Below are positions 12,666 through 49,750 of a DNA stretch of 64,000 bases, piece after piece. Each line of letters begins with the position of its first letter. Position 1 is the stretch's first letter. A program made the position numbers and the translations under genes. The stretch covers positions 186,001 through 250,000 of the forward strand of contig NC_015638.1 of assembly GCF_000211855.2 (NCBI RefSeq), written 5' to 3'. The notes beneath the pieces are model-generated. The model was not told the DNA's origin. It ran no database searches and saw only the letters and a list, made by a program, of their open reading frames with translations. The DNA is from Lacinutrix sp. 5H-3-7-4. Lineage in GTDB: Bacteria > Bacteroidota > Bacteroidia > Flavobacteriales > Flavobacteriaceae.

Positions 12666-14579
12666 ATGGCAAAAGGAAATATTAATGTTTCGGTAGAAAA
12701 CATTTTCCCACTAATTAAGAAGTTCTTGTATAGTGATCACGAAATATTTTTACGTGAGCTTATTAGTAATGGTACAGATGCAACTTTAAAATTAAAGCAT
12801 TTAACCAGTATTGGAGAGTCTAAAGCAGAATATGGAAACCCAATTATTGAAGTAAAAATCGATAAAGAAAGTAAAAAACTTCATATTATTGATCAAGGTT
12901 TAGGTATGACTGCAGACGAAGTTGAAAAATACATTAACCAAGTCGCTTTCTCTGGAGCAGAAGAATTTTTAGATAAATATAAAGACTCTGCTAAAGACTC
13001 TGGAATTATTGGGCATTTTGGTCTTGGTTTTTATTCTGCTTTTATGGTAGCTGATAAAGTAGAAATTATTACTAAATCTCACAAAGAAGGAACCGAAGCT
13101 GCACACTGGACTTGTGATGGTTCTCCAGAATTCACATTAGAAACAGCAGAGAAAAAAGATAGAGGAACAGAAATTATTCTTCACATTGCTGAAGACTCTT
13201 TAGAGTTTTTAGAAGAAGCACGTATTGGTAGCTTACTATCTAAGTATAACAAGTTTATGCCTATTCCAATTAAATTTGGAACTAAAGAAATTAACGATCC
13301 AGAACATACACCTGAAACAACTACAGATGCTGAAGGTAAAGAAACTACAGAACCACAGAAAAAAATTACTGTAGATAATATTATAAATAATCCTAATCCA
13401 GCTTGGACAAAACAACCAACTGAGTTAGAAGATGCAGACTACAAAGGTTTTTATAGAGAGCTTTATCCAGCTCAATTTGAAGAACCTTTATTTCATATTC
13501 ACTTAAATGTAGATTACCCATTTAACTTAACTGGTATATTGTATTTCCCAAAAATGACTCAAGATATGAGCATGCAAAAGGATAAAATTCAATTATACCA
13601 AAACCAAGTATTTGTAACAGATAATGTAGAAGGTATTGTACCAGAATTTTTAACCATGTTACGTGGTGTTATAGATTCTCCAGACATTCCATTAAACGTA
13701 TCTCGTTCGTACTTACAAGCAGATGGCGCTGTTAAAAAGATTTCATCTTACATTACACGTAAAGTAGCAGATAAATTAAAATCGTTATTTAATAATAACC
13801 GTGAAGATTTTGAAGCAAAATGGAACGATATTAAAATTGTTATTGAATATGGAATGCTTTCTGAAGATAAATTCTTCGATAAAGCAGATGCTTTTGCATT
13901 ATACCCAACAGTAGATAATAAGTTTTACACGTATCAAGAATTAGAAAACGCCATTAAAGCAAACCAGACAGATAAAGATGGTAAAATGGTAATTCTATAC
14001 GCAAGCAACCAAGACGAACAACATACATATATTGAAGCTGCCAAAGCAAAAGGATATGAAGTATTGTTATTAGATTCTCCAATTGTTTCGCATTTAATGC
14101 AAAAATTAGAAAGCACAAAAGAGAATATTACTTTTGCACGTGTTGATGCAGATTCTATAGACAAACTAATTAAAAAAGACGATACAACAATTTCTAAATT
14201 AGATGAAGAGCAAACTAAAGCGTTAGACGAATTACTAAAAGAAGTTATTCCTTCTGAAAAATTCTCTGTACAATTAGAACCTCAAGATAGTGATGCTGCT
14301 CCATTTATGATTACACAACCAGAATTTATGCGTCGTATGAAAGAAATGCAAGCTTCTGGTGGTGGCGGAATGAATATGTTTGGTAACATGCCAGAGATTT
14401 ACAACTTAATAGTAAATACAAACTCTAAGCTAGTAAACGAGATTTTAAATACCGAAGCTAAAGAAAAACAAGAGCGTTTAATTAACCAAAGTTTGGATTT
14501 AGCTAGACTATCTCAAGGTTTATTAAAAGGGAAAGAATTAAGCGATTTTGTAAAACGCAGTTATGAGATGATCAAGTAA
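12666..14579 (+). CDS. htpG: Molecular chaperone HtpG (Hsp90)
   Basis: This is a 637-residue bacterial Hsp90. The N-terminal GHKL ATPase domain has FLRELISNGTDA (ATP/Mg Asn in the ELISN motif), DQGLGMT and GHFGLGFYSAFM (the lid glycine loop). The middle domain contains LNVSRSYLQ with the ATP-contacting Arg, and the C-terminal part carries the dimerisation region. A short Gly-rich insert (GGGGMNMFGNMPE) lies near residue 560. It acts as a cytoplasmic ATP-driven chaperone homodimer. A long inverted repeat directly before the start codon suggests specific expression control, possibly heat-related. It ends at a bidirectional terminator. Confidence 0.95.
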   Translation: MAKGNINVSVENIFPLIKKFLYSDHEIFLRELISNGTDATLKLKHLTSIGESKAEYGNPIIEVKIDKESKKLHIIDQGLGMTADEVEKYINQVAFSGAEEFLDKYKDSAKDSGIIGHFGLGFYSAFMVADKVEIITKSHKEGTEAAHWTCDGSPEFTLETAEKKDRGTEIILHIAEDSLEFLEEARIGSLLSKYNKFMPIPIKFGTKEINDPEHTPETTTDAEGKETTEPQKKITVDNIINNPNPAWTKQPTELEDADYKGFYRELYPAQFEEPLFHIHLNVDYPFNLTGILYFPKMTQDMSMQKDKIQLYQNQVFVTDNVEGIVPEFLTMLRGVIDSPDIPLNVSRSYLQADGAVKKISSYITRKVADKLKSLFNNNREDFEAKWNDIKIVIEYGMLSEDKFFDKADAFALYPTVDNKFYTYQELENAIKANQTDKDGKMVILYASNQDEQHTYIEAAKAKGYEVLLLDSPIVSHLMQKLESTKENITFARVDADSIDKLIKKDDTTISKLDEEQTKALDELLKEVIPSEKFSVQLEPQDSDAAPFMITQPEFMRRMKEMQASGGGGMNMFGNMPEIYNLIVNTNSKLVNEILNTEAKEKQERLINQSLDLARLSQGLLKGKELSDFVKRSYEMIK

Positions 14580-14596
14580 TCTCTATAAATTAATTT

Positions 14597-14628
14597 AAAA
14601 AGCCACTTCAATTTGAAGTGGCTTTTTT
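14597..14628. terminator. Bidirectional terminator between htpG and yitT
   Basis: The perfect stem AAAAAGCCACTTCA / TGAAGTGGCTTTTT has a 3-base loop and A/T tracts on both sides. Confidence 0.9.
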
Positions 14629-14635
14629 TATTTAA

Positions 14636-15493
14636 CTAAACCGTTTCAGTTGTAGACTCTAAAACACTAATATCTGCTTTATCATCTACTTTATAAACTA
14701 CAGCTTTAACAGCTTCAATTTGTTTTCTGTTTTTTGTTATTAAAATTAACTTTCCTTGAGAATCATGGTGTATTAATTTTAATATTGTATTAGTATGCTT
14801 TTTGTTATTTAAAAAAGCCTCTTGTATAAGTAAATTCTTTTCAGAAAAAACAAATACCGTCATGTGCATTGCAGATTGCTTAATATAATAAGCTATGGTT
14901 TTACTAATAGCAATTATAGCAACAATACTATAAGCAGCCATTGTAAAATCGTTAAACACAAAAATACCCAAAGCAATTACAATACCATCTACCATTAATA
15001 TTAATTGACTAAAAGGACGTTTAATTTTTTTTGCCAGTATACGAACTAAAATATCATTTCCGCCAGTAGTTGCACCAGCTTTCATTACCATAAAAACAGA
15101 AAAACCAATAATTACACCACCAAATAACGATGAGATTAAAACATCTTCTACAAATATTTTATTTCTAAATATTTTGGTAAAAATGTCTATATAAAAAGAC
15201 ACCAACACCATTGAAAATGCTGTTTTTAAACCTGTTTTTTTTCCCAATACTTTTGTTCCCCAAAGTAATAATGGAATATTTATACACAAAGCCACTATAC
15301 CAACAGATAAACCTGTAAGTTTATTTATTACAATACTTAAACCCAAAATACCACCTGGCACAATATTATGTGGTATAATAAATATTACATACGCTATAGC
15401 CAATATTAATGACCCAATCATGACATTAGTATAGCTTTTTAATTCTTTAATTGTTTGCTCTCTTTTTAGTAATACTGTGATTTTTCTTATCAT
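14636..15493 (-). CDS. YitT family membrane protein
   Basis: This 285-residue protein has about five to six membrane segments (residues about 25-190) with the YitT signature motifs NIVPGGILGLSIVINKLTG and MKAGATTGGNDILVR. A C-terminal soluble DUF2179 domain (about 205-280) reads HMTVFVFSEKN, and HDSQGKLILITKNRKQIEAVKAVV follows in it. The family is widespread; its transported substrate is not established. On its upstream side an intrinsic terminator ends only about 11 bases before the start codon, leaving no space for a promoter. Expression must therefore read through that terminator, as in an attenuator. Confidence 0.88.
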   Translation of the reverse strand: MIRKITVLLKREQTIKELKSYTNVMIGSLILAIAYVIFIIPHNIVPGGILGLSIVINKLTGLSVGIVALCINIPLLLWGTKVLGKKTGLKTAFSMVLVSFYIDIFTKIFRNKIFVEDVLISSLFGGVIIGFSVFMVMKAGATTGGNDILVRILAKKIKRPFSQLILMVDGIVIALGIFVFNDFTMAAYSIVAIIAISKTIAYYIKQSAMHMTVFVFSEKNLLIQEAFLNNKKHTNTILKLIHHDSQGKLILITKNRKQIEAVKAVVYKVDDKADISVLESTTETV

Positions 15494-15503
15494 AATACTA
15501 GGT

Positions 15504-15544
15504 ATAAAAAAATCCCTTTGATTTAGTGTAAAATCAAAGGGATT
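15504..15544 (-). terminator. Terminator directly preceding yitT start codon
   Basis: The perfect 14-bp stem AATCCCTTTGATTT / AAATCAAAGGGATT (15511-15524 with 15531-15544) is followed on the minus strand by seven T. The start codon of yitT lies about 11 bases further on, so this is a candidate attenuator. Confidence 0.85.
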
Positions 15545-15675
15545 AAAAGTTTCTATTTCTTATTAATTTAAACGCTTTGATATTTGGATATAATCGACTT
15601 CTTACACATAAAATTATGTGCATTACTTTTAATATTAATCGATATAAGGTTTAAAAAATTCATTTTACTATGGTT
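15545..15675 (-). other. Structured leader segment upstream of yitT
   Basis: This lies between two minus-strand terminators. It contains a perfect hairpin CACATAA-AA-TTATGTG (15605-15620 on the plus strand), flanked by TCGA-containing complementary segments (minus strand TATATCGA and TCGATTATA) that can form an enclosing stem with one bulge. No ORF or consensus promoter was seen. It could be the sensing part of an attenuator. Confidence 0.4.
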
Positions 15676-15712
15676 AAAAAAAAAGCGTTCTATTAAAAAA
15701 TAGAACGCTTTA
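15676..15712 (-). terminator. Terminator of the micro-ORF transcript
   Basis: The minus strand reads a stem AAGCGTTCTATT / AATAGAACGCTT followed by a run of at least eight T. It lies 24 bases after the stop of the 20-codon ORF. Confidence 0.85.
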
Positions 15713-15735
15713 TATATGGTTTTATAATATACGCT

Positions 15736-15798
15736 CTATGCTTTGGAAGTTGACATCCAAAACATTTTACAAATACTATTTAATTTATTGTTTCTCAT
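15736..15798 (-). CDS. 20-codon micro-ORF, possible leader peptide
   Basis: The minus-strand ATG at 15798 opens a 20-residue frame beginning MRNNKLNSIC and ending FWMSTSKA before TAG. It starts 10 bases after an exact -7 element that also has a TTTG -33 box, and it is followed by an intrinsic terminator. The promoter-ORF-terminator arrangement makes a real short transcript of about 125 bases likely. Whether the peptide or the RNA is functional is unknown. It lies upstream of yitT on the same strand and may be its leader peptide. The peptide holds three Met, one Cys, one Phe and one Trp. Confidence 0.5.
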   Translation of the reverse strand: MRNNKLNSICKMFWMSTSKA

Positions 15799-15808
15799 AA
15801 TTATACTG

Positions 15809-15816
15809 CAAAGGTA
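15809..15816 (-). promoter_or_regulatory. Consensus promoter of the micro-ORF / yitT leader
   Basis: The minus strand reads TACCTTTG (exact -7 match), with TTTG at 15834-15837 seventeen bases upstream serving as the -33 box. This is one of the two best promoter matches in the window. Confidence 0.7.
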
Positions 15817-15872
15817 AATTTAATTTTTATAATCAAACCTTTCTTTTGTTAAATTAATTTTAAATAAAATTA

Positions 15873-15900
15873 AAAAATACTATGCGTGCATAGTATTTTT
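15873..15900. promoter_or_regulatory. 28-bp perfect inverted repeat upstream of the pyc operon
   Basis: AAAAATACTATGC, GT, GCATAGTATTTTT: the 13-bp arms pair perfectly. It lies 40 bases before the first gene of the pyc operon and about 60 bases behind the divergent micro-ORF promoter. The core ATGCGTGCAT matches the palindrome at 12468 except for one central base. A regulator-binding site shared by the two loci is inferred. Confidence 0.5.
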
Positions 15901-15940
15901 TATCAATAAATAACTACCTTATAGGCTTTCTATTATAACT

Positions 15941-17002
15941 ATGAATGAAAAACTTATTTCTAAAAAAAAACCAGCATATCCTATAACAGATAAGTTGTCA
16001 AAATACCTTAGTGAGCAAGGCCGAAACATAAAAATTCCAATTTTTTATGATGACCTTTTGCGCTTTCAAGGTGCAGTAGAAATTTTTGATGATAATGATA
16101 ATGATACACTTTGGGTAAGCTGTTATTATGCCGAGCATGAAAGAGATGAAATAGAGTTAAGTTTAAAACAAATGTATTCTATATTACATTCAGACGGTAG
16201 TGACTCTATTCTACCCTATTTAAATATTGATAGTATTGATTTTTGCACATTTGGTAATACTAAACCTTTTCGTATAAAAGTTAGAAACGTATTAAATGAT
16301 AACTATATATTTTTATATATAAAAAAAGCAGATGCTTCTAGAATTTACGGTTTAGAACTTGAACATATTCTATCGCCCAACCACATAAACTTTTTAGTTC
16401 ATAAAGACACTTTAATAGAAGAACATATTTCTGGAATTCCTGGTGACACTTACATAAGCGAATACCTAAATAAAATTACAGAACAAGATAAACGTGCATT
16501 AGCCAAAGAGTTTGTTAAATTTAATGAGCGCTGCTTTGTAAGACTTTTGGCAGATATGCGCTCGTATAATTATGTAATAGTAATTACTCATGATTTCGAC
16601 CGTATTCAATATAGAATTCGCGCAGTAGATTTCGACCAGCAAAGTTATGAAGGTAACCCAAAAGTATATAAACCACAGTTTTTAAAAGAAAACAATGCTT
16701 TAGTAAAAATGAGTATAGAGGTTTTAGCTAAAGAGTCGATAGAACAATATAAAAAAGAAGAACGTTCTCTTCTAGCAAAGCGAGCAACAAGCGAACAGGA
16801 ACGCTTACAGGATTTAATTAATTGCATGAAAGAAGATACAATTTCTACAAATGCTAAAATTAAAGAATTAAGGTCTGGCTTATTTAAACTTACTAACGAT
16901 GTAAGATTTAAACGCTCTAAAAACATGGGAGAATTACTAAAGTCCGCATTAGATTTTATTATAAGAAATTACCAAAACGAAAATCCATATATTATAAAAT
17001 AA
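15941..17002 (+). CDS. Unrecognised protein with degenerate kinase-like motifs
   Basis: I do not recognise this 353-residue cytoplasmic protein as a named family. Residues 205-210 (DMRSYN) fit the D-x4-N of a kinase catalytic loop and 230-232 (DFD) fit a DFG-like metal site about 20 residues on. EEHISGIPGD at 160-169 could be a hinge. The canonical His of HxD is absent, and no Gly-rich loop is evident in the N-terminal half, so activity is uncertain. The C-terminal third (about 255-345) is charged and helical, probably coiled coil. It sits 27 bases upstream of pyc on the same strand, suggesting a shared transcript and possibly a role in controlling pyruvate carboxylase (inference). Confidence 0.6.
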   Translation: MNEKLISKKKPAYPITDKLSKYLSEQGRNIKIPIFYDDLLRFQGAVEIFDDNDNDTLWVSCYYAEHERDEIELSLKQMYSILHSDGSDSILPYLNIDSIDFCTFGNTKPFRIKVRNVLNDNYIFLYIKKADASRIYGLELEHILSPNHINFLVHKDTLIEEHISGIPGDTYISEYLNKITEQDKRALAKEFVKFNERCFVRLLADMRSYNYVIVITHDFDRIQYRIRAVDFDQQSYEGNPKVYKPQFLKENNALVKMSIEVLAKESIEQYKKEERSLLAKRATSEQERLQDLINCMKEDTISTNAKIKELRSGLFKLTNDVRFKRSKNMGELLKSALDFIIRNYQNENPYIIK

Positions 17003-17029
17003 CACACAACTAAAACACACTACTACAAA

Positions 17030-20000
17030 ATGAAAATTAAAAAAGTTCTTGTTGCTAACAGAAGTGAAATTGCTATTCGCGTTTTACGAGCTTGTACAGA
17101 GTTAAACATAACAACTGTAGCCATTTATACGTACGAAGATCGCTACTCGCAACATAGAAATAAAGCTGATGAATCTTACCAAATTGGAGAAGACAACCAA
17201 CCATTAAAACCCTATTTAGATATTGAAGCCATAATAGATTTGGCAAAATCTAAAAATGTAGACGCCATACATCCAGGTTATGGTTTTTTATCAGAAAACT
17301 CAGAATTTGCAAGACAATGTGCCGCTAATGGGATTATTTTTATTGGTCCAGACCCAAAGGTTATGGACGCTTTAGGTGATAAAATTACTGCAAAAAAAGT
17401 AGCAGTAAAATGTAATGTACCAATTATAGAAAGTAATAAAAAGAAACTAACCTCTTTAAAAGTAGCGCTTTCTCAAGCCGAAACTATAGGTTATCCTATT
17501 ATGCTTAAAGCTGCTTCTGGTGGCGGCGGTCGTGGTATGCGAATTATTAGAAAAGCTGAAGATTTAGAACTAAATTTTGACTCAGCAAGAAATGAAGCAT
17601 TAAATGCTTTTGGAGATGACACCATGTTTTTAGAAAAATATGTTGAAGACCCAAAACATATTGAAGTGCAAATTGTTGCAGATAATCATGGTAATATTCG
17701 CCACTTACATGAACGCGACTGCTCTGTACAACGTCGACATCAAAAAGTAGTTGAAATTGCACCATCACATAATGTAAGTGAAAATGTTAAACAACAATTA
17801 TATAAATATGCTGTTTCTATTGCCAAGGAAGTAAATTATAATAACATTGGTACAGTAGAGTTTTTAGTAGATAGAGAAGATAATATTTACTTTATAGAAG
17901 TTAATCCAAGAATACAGGTAGAACATACCGTTACCGAAATGGTTACAGGTATAGATTTGGTAAAAACACAAATTTTTGTTGCTGGTGGTTACAAATTAAG
18001 CAGCCAACAAATAAAAATATACGATCAAGATTCTATTGCAACCTATGGTTTTGCATTACAATGTAGACTTACAACCGAAGATCCTGCCAATAACTTTACA
18101 CCAGATTATGGTAATGTAACAACATATCGTAGTGCATCTGGTATGGGTATTCGTTTAGACGCTGGTAGTATATACCAAGGCTATCAGGTAAGTCCGTTTT
18201 TCGATTCTATGTTAGTAAAAGTTTCATCACATGGTAGAACCTTAGATGGTGCTACGCGTAAAATGATTCGAGCTTTAAAAGAATTTAGAATTCGTGGTGT
18301 AAAAACTAACATTCACTTTTTACAAAATGTAATTCAGCATCCAACGTTTAAAGATGGAAAAGTAACCGTTAATTTTATTCAAAATACGCCTGCACTTTTC
18401 AAAATAAAATTACCACAAGATAGAACTTCAAAAGTAGTTAAGTATTTAGCTGAAACTATAGTAAATGGCAATCCAGATGTAAAGTTTATTGAAGAAAACA
18501 AGGTGTTTAGAAACCCTAAAATTCCAAAGTTTAGTTTATCTGAAGCTTATCCAAAAGGCACAAAAGATTTACTTACAGAGTTAGGACCAGAAAAATTTTG
18601 TGCTTGGTTAAAAGATGAAAAGAAAATTCATTTTACAGATACCACAATGCGAGATGCACACCAGTCACTATTAGCAACACGTATGCGAACGTTCGATATG
18701 CTTAAAGTAGCCGAAAGTTATGCAAAAAACCATCCTAATACATTTAGTATGGAAGTTTGGGGTGGCGCAACTTTTGATGTTTGCTTACGTTTCCTGCACG
18801 AAAGTCCATGGACACGCTTAAGAGAATTGCGTAAAGCAGTACCCAACATATTATTTCAAATGCTATTACGAGGTTCTAATGGTGTTGGTTATAAAGCTTA
18901 TCCAGATAATTTAATAGAGAAGTTTGTAGAAAAATCTTGGGAAAATGGTGTTGATATTTTTAGAATTTTCGACTCCTTAAACTGGGTAAAAGCTATGGAA
19001 CCAAGTATAAATTATGTTCGTAATAAAACTGGCGGAATTGCAGAGGCAGCATTAAGTTATACTGGCGATATTTTAGATGTTAATGAAACAAAATACAACC
19101 TAAAATACTATACACAACTTGCTAAAGATTTAGAAAATGCTGGTGCGCACATGATTGCCATAAAAGATATGGCAGGTTTATTAAAACCTTATGCAGCAAC
19201 CGAATTGGTTTCGGCGTTAAAAGACACAGTAAATGTACCAATTCATTTGCATACTCACGATACCTCATCACTACAAACAGCAACCTATTTAAAAGCTATT
19301 GAAGCTGGTGTAGATGTTGTAGATGTAGCATTAAGTGGCTTATCTGGTTTAACCTCACAACCCAACTTTAATGCGGTTGTAGAAATGATGAAAAACCAAC
19401 CAAGAGCTCACGACTTTAATATGCCAAAACTTAATGAGTTTAGTAACTTTTGGGAAGACACTCGTGAGTTGTATTATCCTTTCGAGTCTGGTTTAAAAGC
19501 TGGTACCGCAGAGGTTTTTGAACATGAAATTCCTGGCGGACAATATTCAAATTTAAGACCGCAAGCTACAGCTTTAGGTTTAGGAGATAGATTTGATGAG
19601 GTTAAAAAAATGTATGCTGCCGTAAATAAACTCTTTGGTAATTTGGTTAAAGTAACACCTAGCTCTAAAGTGGTTGGTGATATGGCTATTTTTATGGTAA
19701 CTAATAATCTTACTACAGAAGATGTTATGGAGCGTGGTGAAGAAATTTCGTTTCCAGAATCGGTAATTAGTTTCTTTAAAGGAGATTTAGGTCAGCCAGC
19801 TGGAGGATTTCCTAAAAAGCTTCAAAAAATAATTCTAAAAAACAGAAAGCCATATACTAATAGACCAAATGCTCATTTAGAACCTATAGATTTTGATACT
19901 GAGTATAAAGCCTTTAAAAAGAAATTTCAAAAAGGATTTACAAGAGCTATAGAAATGGAAGATTTCTTATCGTACACTCTATATCCAAAAGTTTTTGAAA

Positions 20001-33615: not shown

Positions 33616-33658
33616 AGTACAATTAAAAAACATCACACTTTTGTTTTTTAATTGTACT
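33616..33658 (+). terminator. Long AT-rich hairpin after the DUF885 gene
   Basis: A 16-bp perfect inverted repeat (33616-33631 with 33643-33658) has an 11-base loop and is followed by TT and A/T-rich sequence. Probably the terminator of the DUF885 gene. Confidence 0.6.
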
Positions 33659-49718: not shown

Positions 49719-49750
49719 CAAAAAAATCCAGCTTAAAAGCTGGATTTTAA
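49719..49750 (-). terminator. Terminator after the DUF5606 gene
   Basis: The perfect 12-bp stem AAAATCCAGCTT / AAGCTGGATTTT has T tract on the minus strand. Confidence 0.9.

Follow-up and report, generated by a model that had tools for sequence, protein, structure and literature searches.

Probable tandem leader-peptide attenuators upstream of yitT in Flavobacteriaceae and a candidate sulfur amino acid signal

The trp, his and ilv attenuators combine a short ORF, competing hairpins, an antiterminator at the end of the ORF and an intrinsic terminator, and the same set of parts can be recognised upstream of yitT in Lacinutrix sp. 5H-3-7-4. The yitT leader differs from these systems in three respects: two units stand in series, the candidate control codons are few, and the target is an uncharacterised membrane protein. 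In the Salmonella mgtCBR leader, two short ORFs precede a membrane-protein operon and answer different signals, ATP and proline (PMC3641672). Two short ORFs in one leader and a membrane-protein target are features that yitT shares with mgtCBR, whereas both yitT leader ORFs carry Cys/Met codons, and the comparison made here is one of layout. A small number of Cys codons also has a counterpart, since the uORFC-8-2 motif is described as an attenuator with only two Cys codons; it is, however, a single unit, precedes cysS and belongs to Rhodobacterales (PMC8632094). Cys leaders are reported before actinobacterial cys operons (PMC1262725), a tandem second terminator is reported in some rimP leaders (PMC2965389), and leader-peptide attenuation before amino acid operons has been reported for Flavobacterium psychrophilum (PMC9723704) and suspected for Bacteroides thetaiotaomicron (PMC7366714). 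Among the matches listed, nothing in the open literature connected YitT with a leader, with methionine or with cysteine, and neither a yitT leader nor tandem met leaders in Bacteroidota were the subject of a paper. Proteins of the YitT family are widespread; to our knowledge they have no settled function or substrate, and two leader-peptide attenuators in series are otherwise known to us only with two different signals, as in mgtCBR.

The window, by which we mean the whole analysed stretch of 64,000 nucleotides, belongs to a genome of one contig of 3.3 Mb, and the features of its yitT leader are collected in table 1. Nineteen leaders were compared (the window, L036-L042 and L046-L056), which span five Flavobacteriaceae genera and one uncultured Flavobacteriales; L001-L005 and L045 were left out as second copies of the same genomes. 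Each unit consists of a short ORF, an intrinsic terminator and, at the ORF end, a strand able to pair with the 5' terminator arm. Unit 2 stands in 19/19 leaders and unit 1 in 18/19, L049 having only the former, and the alignments A2 and A3 hold 18 and 19 rows. Comparison of the sequences supports the promoter element, the ORFs, the terminators and the possible antiterminators, the order in which these stand and their association with this YitT subfamily, and yitT is very probably controlled by tandem leader-peptide transcription attenuators of the ribosome-mediated trp type, here doubled. The initial annotation had proposed a transcription-attenuation or riboswitch system with a leader peptide; attenuation with a leader peptide is upheld by the 19-leader comparison, with the amendment that there are two peptides and two attenuators in series, and the riboswitch part finds no support.

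Table 1. Features of the yitT leader and gene in the window.
Feature	Position	Strand	Description
TTTG, possible -33 element	15834..15837	-	17 nt upstream of TACCTTTG
-7 element TANNTTTG	15809..15816	-	TACCTTTG
Leader ORF1	15736..15798	-	20 codons (MRNNKLNSICKMFWMSTSKA)
Hairpin P1 inside ORF1	15738..15765	-	predicted fold, AUGUUUUGGA / UCCAAAGCAU; overlaps antiterminator 1
Possible antiterminator 1, 5' strand	15731..15744	-	AAAGCAUAGAGCGU; overlaps ORF1 stop; core pairs with 15708-15700
Terminator T1	stem 15682..15711	-	consensus scan; same strand as T2
Leader ORF2	15568..15663	-	31 codons (MNFLNLISINIKSNAHNFMCKKSIISKYQSV)
Hairpin inside ORF2	15605..15620	-	CACAUA/UAUGUG
Possible antiterminator 2, 5' strand	15575..15581	-	AUCAAAG; pairs with 15539-15533
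Terminator T2	15511..15544	-	14 pairs, 6-nt loop, T run
yitT	14636..15493	-	PF02588 membrane protein, stand-alone gene; Pfam 166 bits

The perfect 14-bp stem with a T run that had first drawn attention to the locus, just before the yitT ATG, is confirmed as T2; its T run extends to 15506, which leaves 12 bases (15505-15494) before the ATG at 15493. A consensus terminator scan of 13000-18000 returned four terminator-like sites against 1.5 expected. The arrangement of terminator before start codon is conserved in orthologues, as the initial annotation had anticipated: in all 19 leader-bearing loci a terminator lies 12-34 nt before the yitT start. T2 is recovered by a strict scan in 19/19 leaders and T1 in 13/18 rows, the remaining five having interrupted stems and being placed by motif. 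Covariance in the aligned yitT upstream regions, which had been suggested as a check, is found in both terminator stems: that of T1 is 89.5% paired, with two-sided changes in four pairs (1/500 shuffles), and that of T2 is 98% paired, likewise with four such pairs (0/500 shuffles). The antiterminators do not covary beyond shuffles, with 81/500 for antiterminator 1 over the 18 rows of A2 and 167/500 for antiterminator 2 over the 19 rows of A3.

Both possible antiterminators lie in the same place in every leader that has the unit. Antiterminator 1 (18/18) is predicted at -10.3 to -15.3 kcal/mol with a shuffle p of 0.003-0.106, and antiterminator 2 (19/19) at -5.8 to -12.3 kcal/mol with a shuffle p of 0.004-0.174; on the alignments 83.3% and 96.9% of the cells are paired, and slid versions reach at most 52.7% and 55%, respectively. 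Both are kept in L042, where the protein is 46% identical, despite changed letters. The hairpin P1 is weak on the alignment, being 71.3% paired, no better than shuffles (292/500), with one slid version equal to it. In the ORF2 hairpin 88.6% of the cells are paired over 19 rows, a value reached by 0/500 shuffles, and three pairs have two-sided changes (120/500 shuffles; covariation score 3/500). This is the CACATAA/TTATGTG hairpin that had been described earlier inside complementary TCGA segments: the hairpin (15620-15605) stands as a feature whose pairing is kept, and the TCGA flanks do not stand as a conserved one. Their pairing was rejected as a conserved element because it is found only in the window and a 98% identical relative and is absent from the other Lacinutrix rows. 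ORF1 has 19-20 codons in 18/18 leaders and ORF2 26-34 codons in 19/19. Over the leader ORFs pN/pS is 0.58-0.89, so that the peptides are weakly constrained and selection on the peptide can act at no more than a few positions.

In the mechanism that we infer, terminator and antiterminator would compete co-transcriptionally on a leader RNA started from one promoter upstream of ORF1. A ribosome running freely to the end of ORF1 would cover the antiterminator strand, T1 would form and transcription would stop; the second gate would act alike, with a free ribosome on ORF2 allowing T2 to end transcription. Slowing of the ribosome at Met/Cys codons (I-C-K-M in ORF1, M-C-K in ORF2) would leave the antiterminator strand available for pairing with the 5' terminator arm, the polymerase would pass, and a shortage of charged Met/Cys-tRNA would open both gates. 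The need to open both would give low leak and a sharp response. The initial annotation expected the ligand of such a leader to be informative; the 'ligand' would most likely be the charging state of tRNA as felt by the ribosome.

That the signal is a sulfur amino acid, Met or Cys, is somewhat favoured by the composition of the leader ORFs and the placement of their codons. Relative to the proteins of the window, Cys is enriched 8-fold and Met 2.4- to 2.6-fold in both leaders. In 18/18 first and 18/19 second leaders the antiterminator core is preceded at a distance of 15-33 nt, a range set after looking, by a codon for Met or Cys; from protein composition 2.9 and 2.7 such leaders would be expected (units 1 and 2). 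The exception is L049, with neither amino acid in that range, and the leaders without Cys there (L041 and L042 in unit 1, L051 and L053 in unit 2) have Met instead. Cys stands at codon 10 of ORF1 (codon 11 in L051) in 16/18 leaders, and in the narrower range of 17-32 nt Cys alone is found in 9/18 leaders of unit 1 and 15/19 of unit 2. Position shuffles, made on 9 (unit 1) and 10 (unit 2) chosen rows, some of them of one genus, gave p values for the two units of 0.0055 and 0.0175 for Met-or-Cys, 0.0005 and 0.0015 for Cys, and 0.0185 and 0.0025 for Met. Pure Cys starvation was rejected as the signal because three leaders are without any Cys, and the Met-or-Cys reading was therefore adopted. In unit 2, TGY is equally frequent in frame +1, and the M-C codons sit in an arm of the conserved ORF2 hairpin. 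All leader Cys codons (43/43) are TGT; in the genes of the window the ratio of TGT to TGC is 68:32. Each yitT leader has one to three Met/Cys codons and no runs, whereas most met leaders have five or more.

The same tandem attenuators could instead respond to a ribosome stalled by a shortage of Lys or Trp, or by a ribosome-binding drug as in leaders of the erm/bmrC type, which would give YitT a role in stress or efflux; we consider this unlikely. Most first leaders have I-C-K at codons 9-11, and Lys is near the site in 18/18 first and 17/19 second leaders, but its placement is not significant by position shuffle (p 0.0515 and 0.1309 for units 1 and 2). Trp occurs in 13/18 first leaders with a significant placement (p 0.0055), yet it is absent from all 19 second leaders. 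The idea of a drug-induced arrest gains from three Mycoplasma pneumoniae mutants selected with macrolides (E5, A4 and M7), which are reported to have carried changes in a YitT-family protein (PMC10240068), and it loses from the low constraint on the peptides as a whole and, as for the other causes of stalling, from the resemblance of unit 2 to met leaders.

This resemblance emerged from models of the two units. R1, the model of unit 1, found the yitT leaders of seven genomes at 112-132 bits among 397 genomes, the following matches scoring at most 53.6 bits. Reading 24 of the 28 weaker matches gave 14 ordinary 3' terminators and 10 leaders of amino acid genes (seven ilvD, one ilvE, one trpE, one hisG); ilvE, trpE, hisG and one ilvD that is cut by the locus end were identified by family models, and the other ilvD genes were named by the likeness of their first residues. 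In geometry the yitT units are like the ilv, trp and his leaders of Flavobacteriaceae. The ilvD leaders agree with yitT unit 1 in having 19-20 codons, an antiterminator at the stop and a similar spacing, the terminator starting at nt 89-97, against nt 83-87 in yitT unit 1 (four rows computed). The trp and his leaders are single. A second Ile-rich ORF with a terminator was recognised, partly by eye, in 3/7 ilv loci read for a second unit; L073, L078 and L090 have tandem Ile-rich leader ORFs and two terminators before ilv genes, and four other ilvD loci have only one.

With R2, the model of unit 2, eight yitT loci scored 103-143 bits in the same 397 genomes, and nine further matches lay at 42-54 bits: five metY, one metX-like gene, one OsmC-like gene, and two gene ends with ordinary terminators. 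The metY calls pass TIGR01326 in L132, L133 and L140 and were made by likeness in L135 and L138; the MetX-like gene, at 181.6 bits, and the OsmC-like gene are both below the family cut-off. The seven Met/Cys leaders reach 42-54 bits with R2, against 31 for his and 20-26 for ilv, and with R1 the ilv, trp and his leaders reach about 42-54 bits against at most 39.9 for the met first units. The leader peptides at these R2 matches contain many Met and Cys residues, MNTIFNFSTFIMMRCMRMMCCCMIRYCQT being an example. All six metY/metX-like loci (L132, L133, L135, L137, L138 and L140) are tandem, with a second leader ORF upstream that has Met/Cys codons and a terminator; in 12/12 units a possible antiterminator lies near the ORF end with a Met/Cys codon 13-36 nt before it (shuffle p 0.001-0.090 in second units and 0.019-0.313 in first units). 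These Flavobacteriaceae leaders are like that of yitT in their tandem order, in the unit-2 terminator TCCCTTTGG/A, in the antiterminator near the ORF end and in their Met/Cys codons, and they differ in having more such codons, in preceding enzymes, and in first units that do not strongly resemble yitT unit 1. The layout of two same-type leader-peptide attenuators in series is thus not confined to yitT, being seen at met genes and at some ilv genes. At L134 the OsmC-like gene follows one Met/Cys-rich leader with a terminator, no second unit being recognised there, and it is a possible member of a sulfur regulon.

R3, a model built from the seven Met/Cys leaders, was run on 73 loci, and its first 12 rows are all yitT unit 2, although some matches cover the terminator end only. 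L049 scored 55.5 bits and the window 35.1 bits (E 0.0014), with the his leader at 32.5; decoy or other rows (L090, L101 and L107, 28.4-28.7 bits) score about as high as the weakest yitT rows (24-30 bits). In addition, the non-leader R2 match L136 is a gene end whose ordinary 3' terminator has a T2-like CCCTTTGA stem, so the stem alone proves no kinship, and our estimate for a sulfur signal was lowered on this account. In G000, which is the genome of the window, and in G005 and G098, metY carries a SAM-I riboswitch; Lacinutrix metY has this riboswitch where other genera have tandem leaders. The SAM-I elements before metY in Lacinutrix and G098 lie at L143 2895-3018, L141 1261-1382 and L142 2917-3034. 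SAM-I occurs elsewhere in L133 and L135, and SAM-II in L071, L132, L135 and L141.

The two units might also answer different signals in the manner of mgtCBR, for instance another amino acid in unit 1 and Met/Cys in unit 2, which we hold to be quite improbable. The scores of R1, which outside yitT are best for ilv, trp and his leaders, would agree with it, as would the restriction of Trp to unit 1 and the different sequences of T1 and T2; but the two units agree in the enrichment and placement of Cys, and both ORFs share one codon type in the met tandems as well as in the three ilv tandems seen.

That T1 and T2 only insulate yitT or end small RNAs, yitT having its own promoter, is very unlikely. 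The stem at L136 does make ordinary 3' termination conceivable for a sequence of this kind. A separate scan of the window found 14 terminators, of which three lie no more than 60 nt ahead of a start codon; besides T2 these are 33616-33658 and 49723-49748, each about 24-31 nt after a gene end, whereas upstream of T2 there is no same-strand gene of at least 150 codons within 6499 nt. TANNTTTG, with TACCTTTG in the window, which we take to be the -7 promoter element of Bacteroidota, is found at -18 from the ORF1 ATG in 17/18 leaders and at -16 in L051; L049, which is without unit 1, has it at -15 before ORF2. Between T1 (ORF2 in L049) and the yitT ATG no TANNTTTG is present in any of the 19 leaders, and the earlier statement that yitT mRNA must pass T2, and probably T1, is well supported by the comparison. 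TTTG, presumably a possible -33 element of a Bacteroidota-type promoter, is kept in 8/19 rows (window, L036-L041 and L046), is TTG in two more and is absent in nine. Insulation is opposed further by the conserved antiterminator pairing and by the association of the leader with yitT across different neighbourhoods, those of seven relatives being varied. A riboswitch or protein-binding leader is the least likely reading of all, for although the leader is structured and has a conserved hairpin in ORF2, what is conserved is the ORF, the antiterminator and the terminator, its closest counterparts are ordinary leaders of amino acid genes, and the riboswitch was rejected when neither the window nor five scanned yitT loci (L036, L042, L047, L048 and L049) gave a gathering-level match to an Rfam riboswitch or T-box.

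The linkage of the leader to one YitT subfamily was followed by several searches. In the named contigs seven of nine yitT loci have the leader (L036-L042) and two distant ones are without it (L043 and L044). A profile search of 397 Flavobacteriaceae genomes found the YitT subfamily of the window in eight at E up to 1e-55, and genus scans with the same cut-off found it in 3/4 genomes (adding L051), 6/8 (adding L052-L056) and 1/4 (L049 only). With unit 2 in 19/19 leaders, every YitT found at E up to 1e-55 has the leader. For distant YitT proteins (24-29% identical), inspection of 11 loci by eye showed no leader, and the terminator at one of these distant loci, L030, follows the preceding gene. 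In the genome of the window R1 gave yitT 124 bits and the next match 35 bits, with no leader among the 19 of 28 other matches that were read. A gene-order scan returned 4/316 genomes at E up to 1e-75, namely the genome of the window and three leaderless ones. A pattern for the ORF1 motif was also tried and set aside; it matched in 5/397 genomes, which were three Lacinutrix leaders and two chance matches inside genes.

Two attenuators in series, with the charging of Met/Cys-tRNA as signal and a sulfur amino acid role for the gene, are together likely to be the best explanation of the sequence evidence. The leader is linked to the YitT subfamily in different neighbourhoods, and a role in sulfur amino acid supply, with transport first, would therefore be the simplest guess; the neighbourhoods of the seven relatives gave no functional hint of their own. 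We suggest tentatively that the leader is a serial double gate with the same signal at both steps in Flavobacteriaceae and that this YitT subfamily transports methionine, cysteine or a sulfur compound, a combination that we regard as possible rather than probable. With its apparent reading of Met/Cys codons, the conserved regulator offers a testable substrate class for YitT, and if the transporter reading is true, this would be the first substrate for COG1284/YitT proteins.

Searched against PDB, the YitT sequence had a best match of only E 0.85. The structure model has moderate confidence (pLDDT 65.7), and Foldseek gave no match with E below 0.001, DUF2179, PII and ACT-type folds being among the weak matches (E 0.01-0.1); the C-terminal part of the protein is modelled as a ferredoxin-like fold. 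A second YitT paralogue, 25% identical, is encoded outside the window in the same genome (G000:C1:413844-414467). Upstream of yitT a divergent gene starts at 15941, and between it and the yitT promoter lies a near-perfect palindrome, AAAATACTATGCGTGCATAGTATTTT, at 15873-15900 with A and T runs, which is a candidate operator or bidirectional terminator. A similar core, TGCGTGCATA, is found upstream of the promoter in other Lacinutrix too, and twice in L040.
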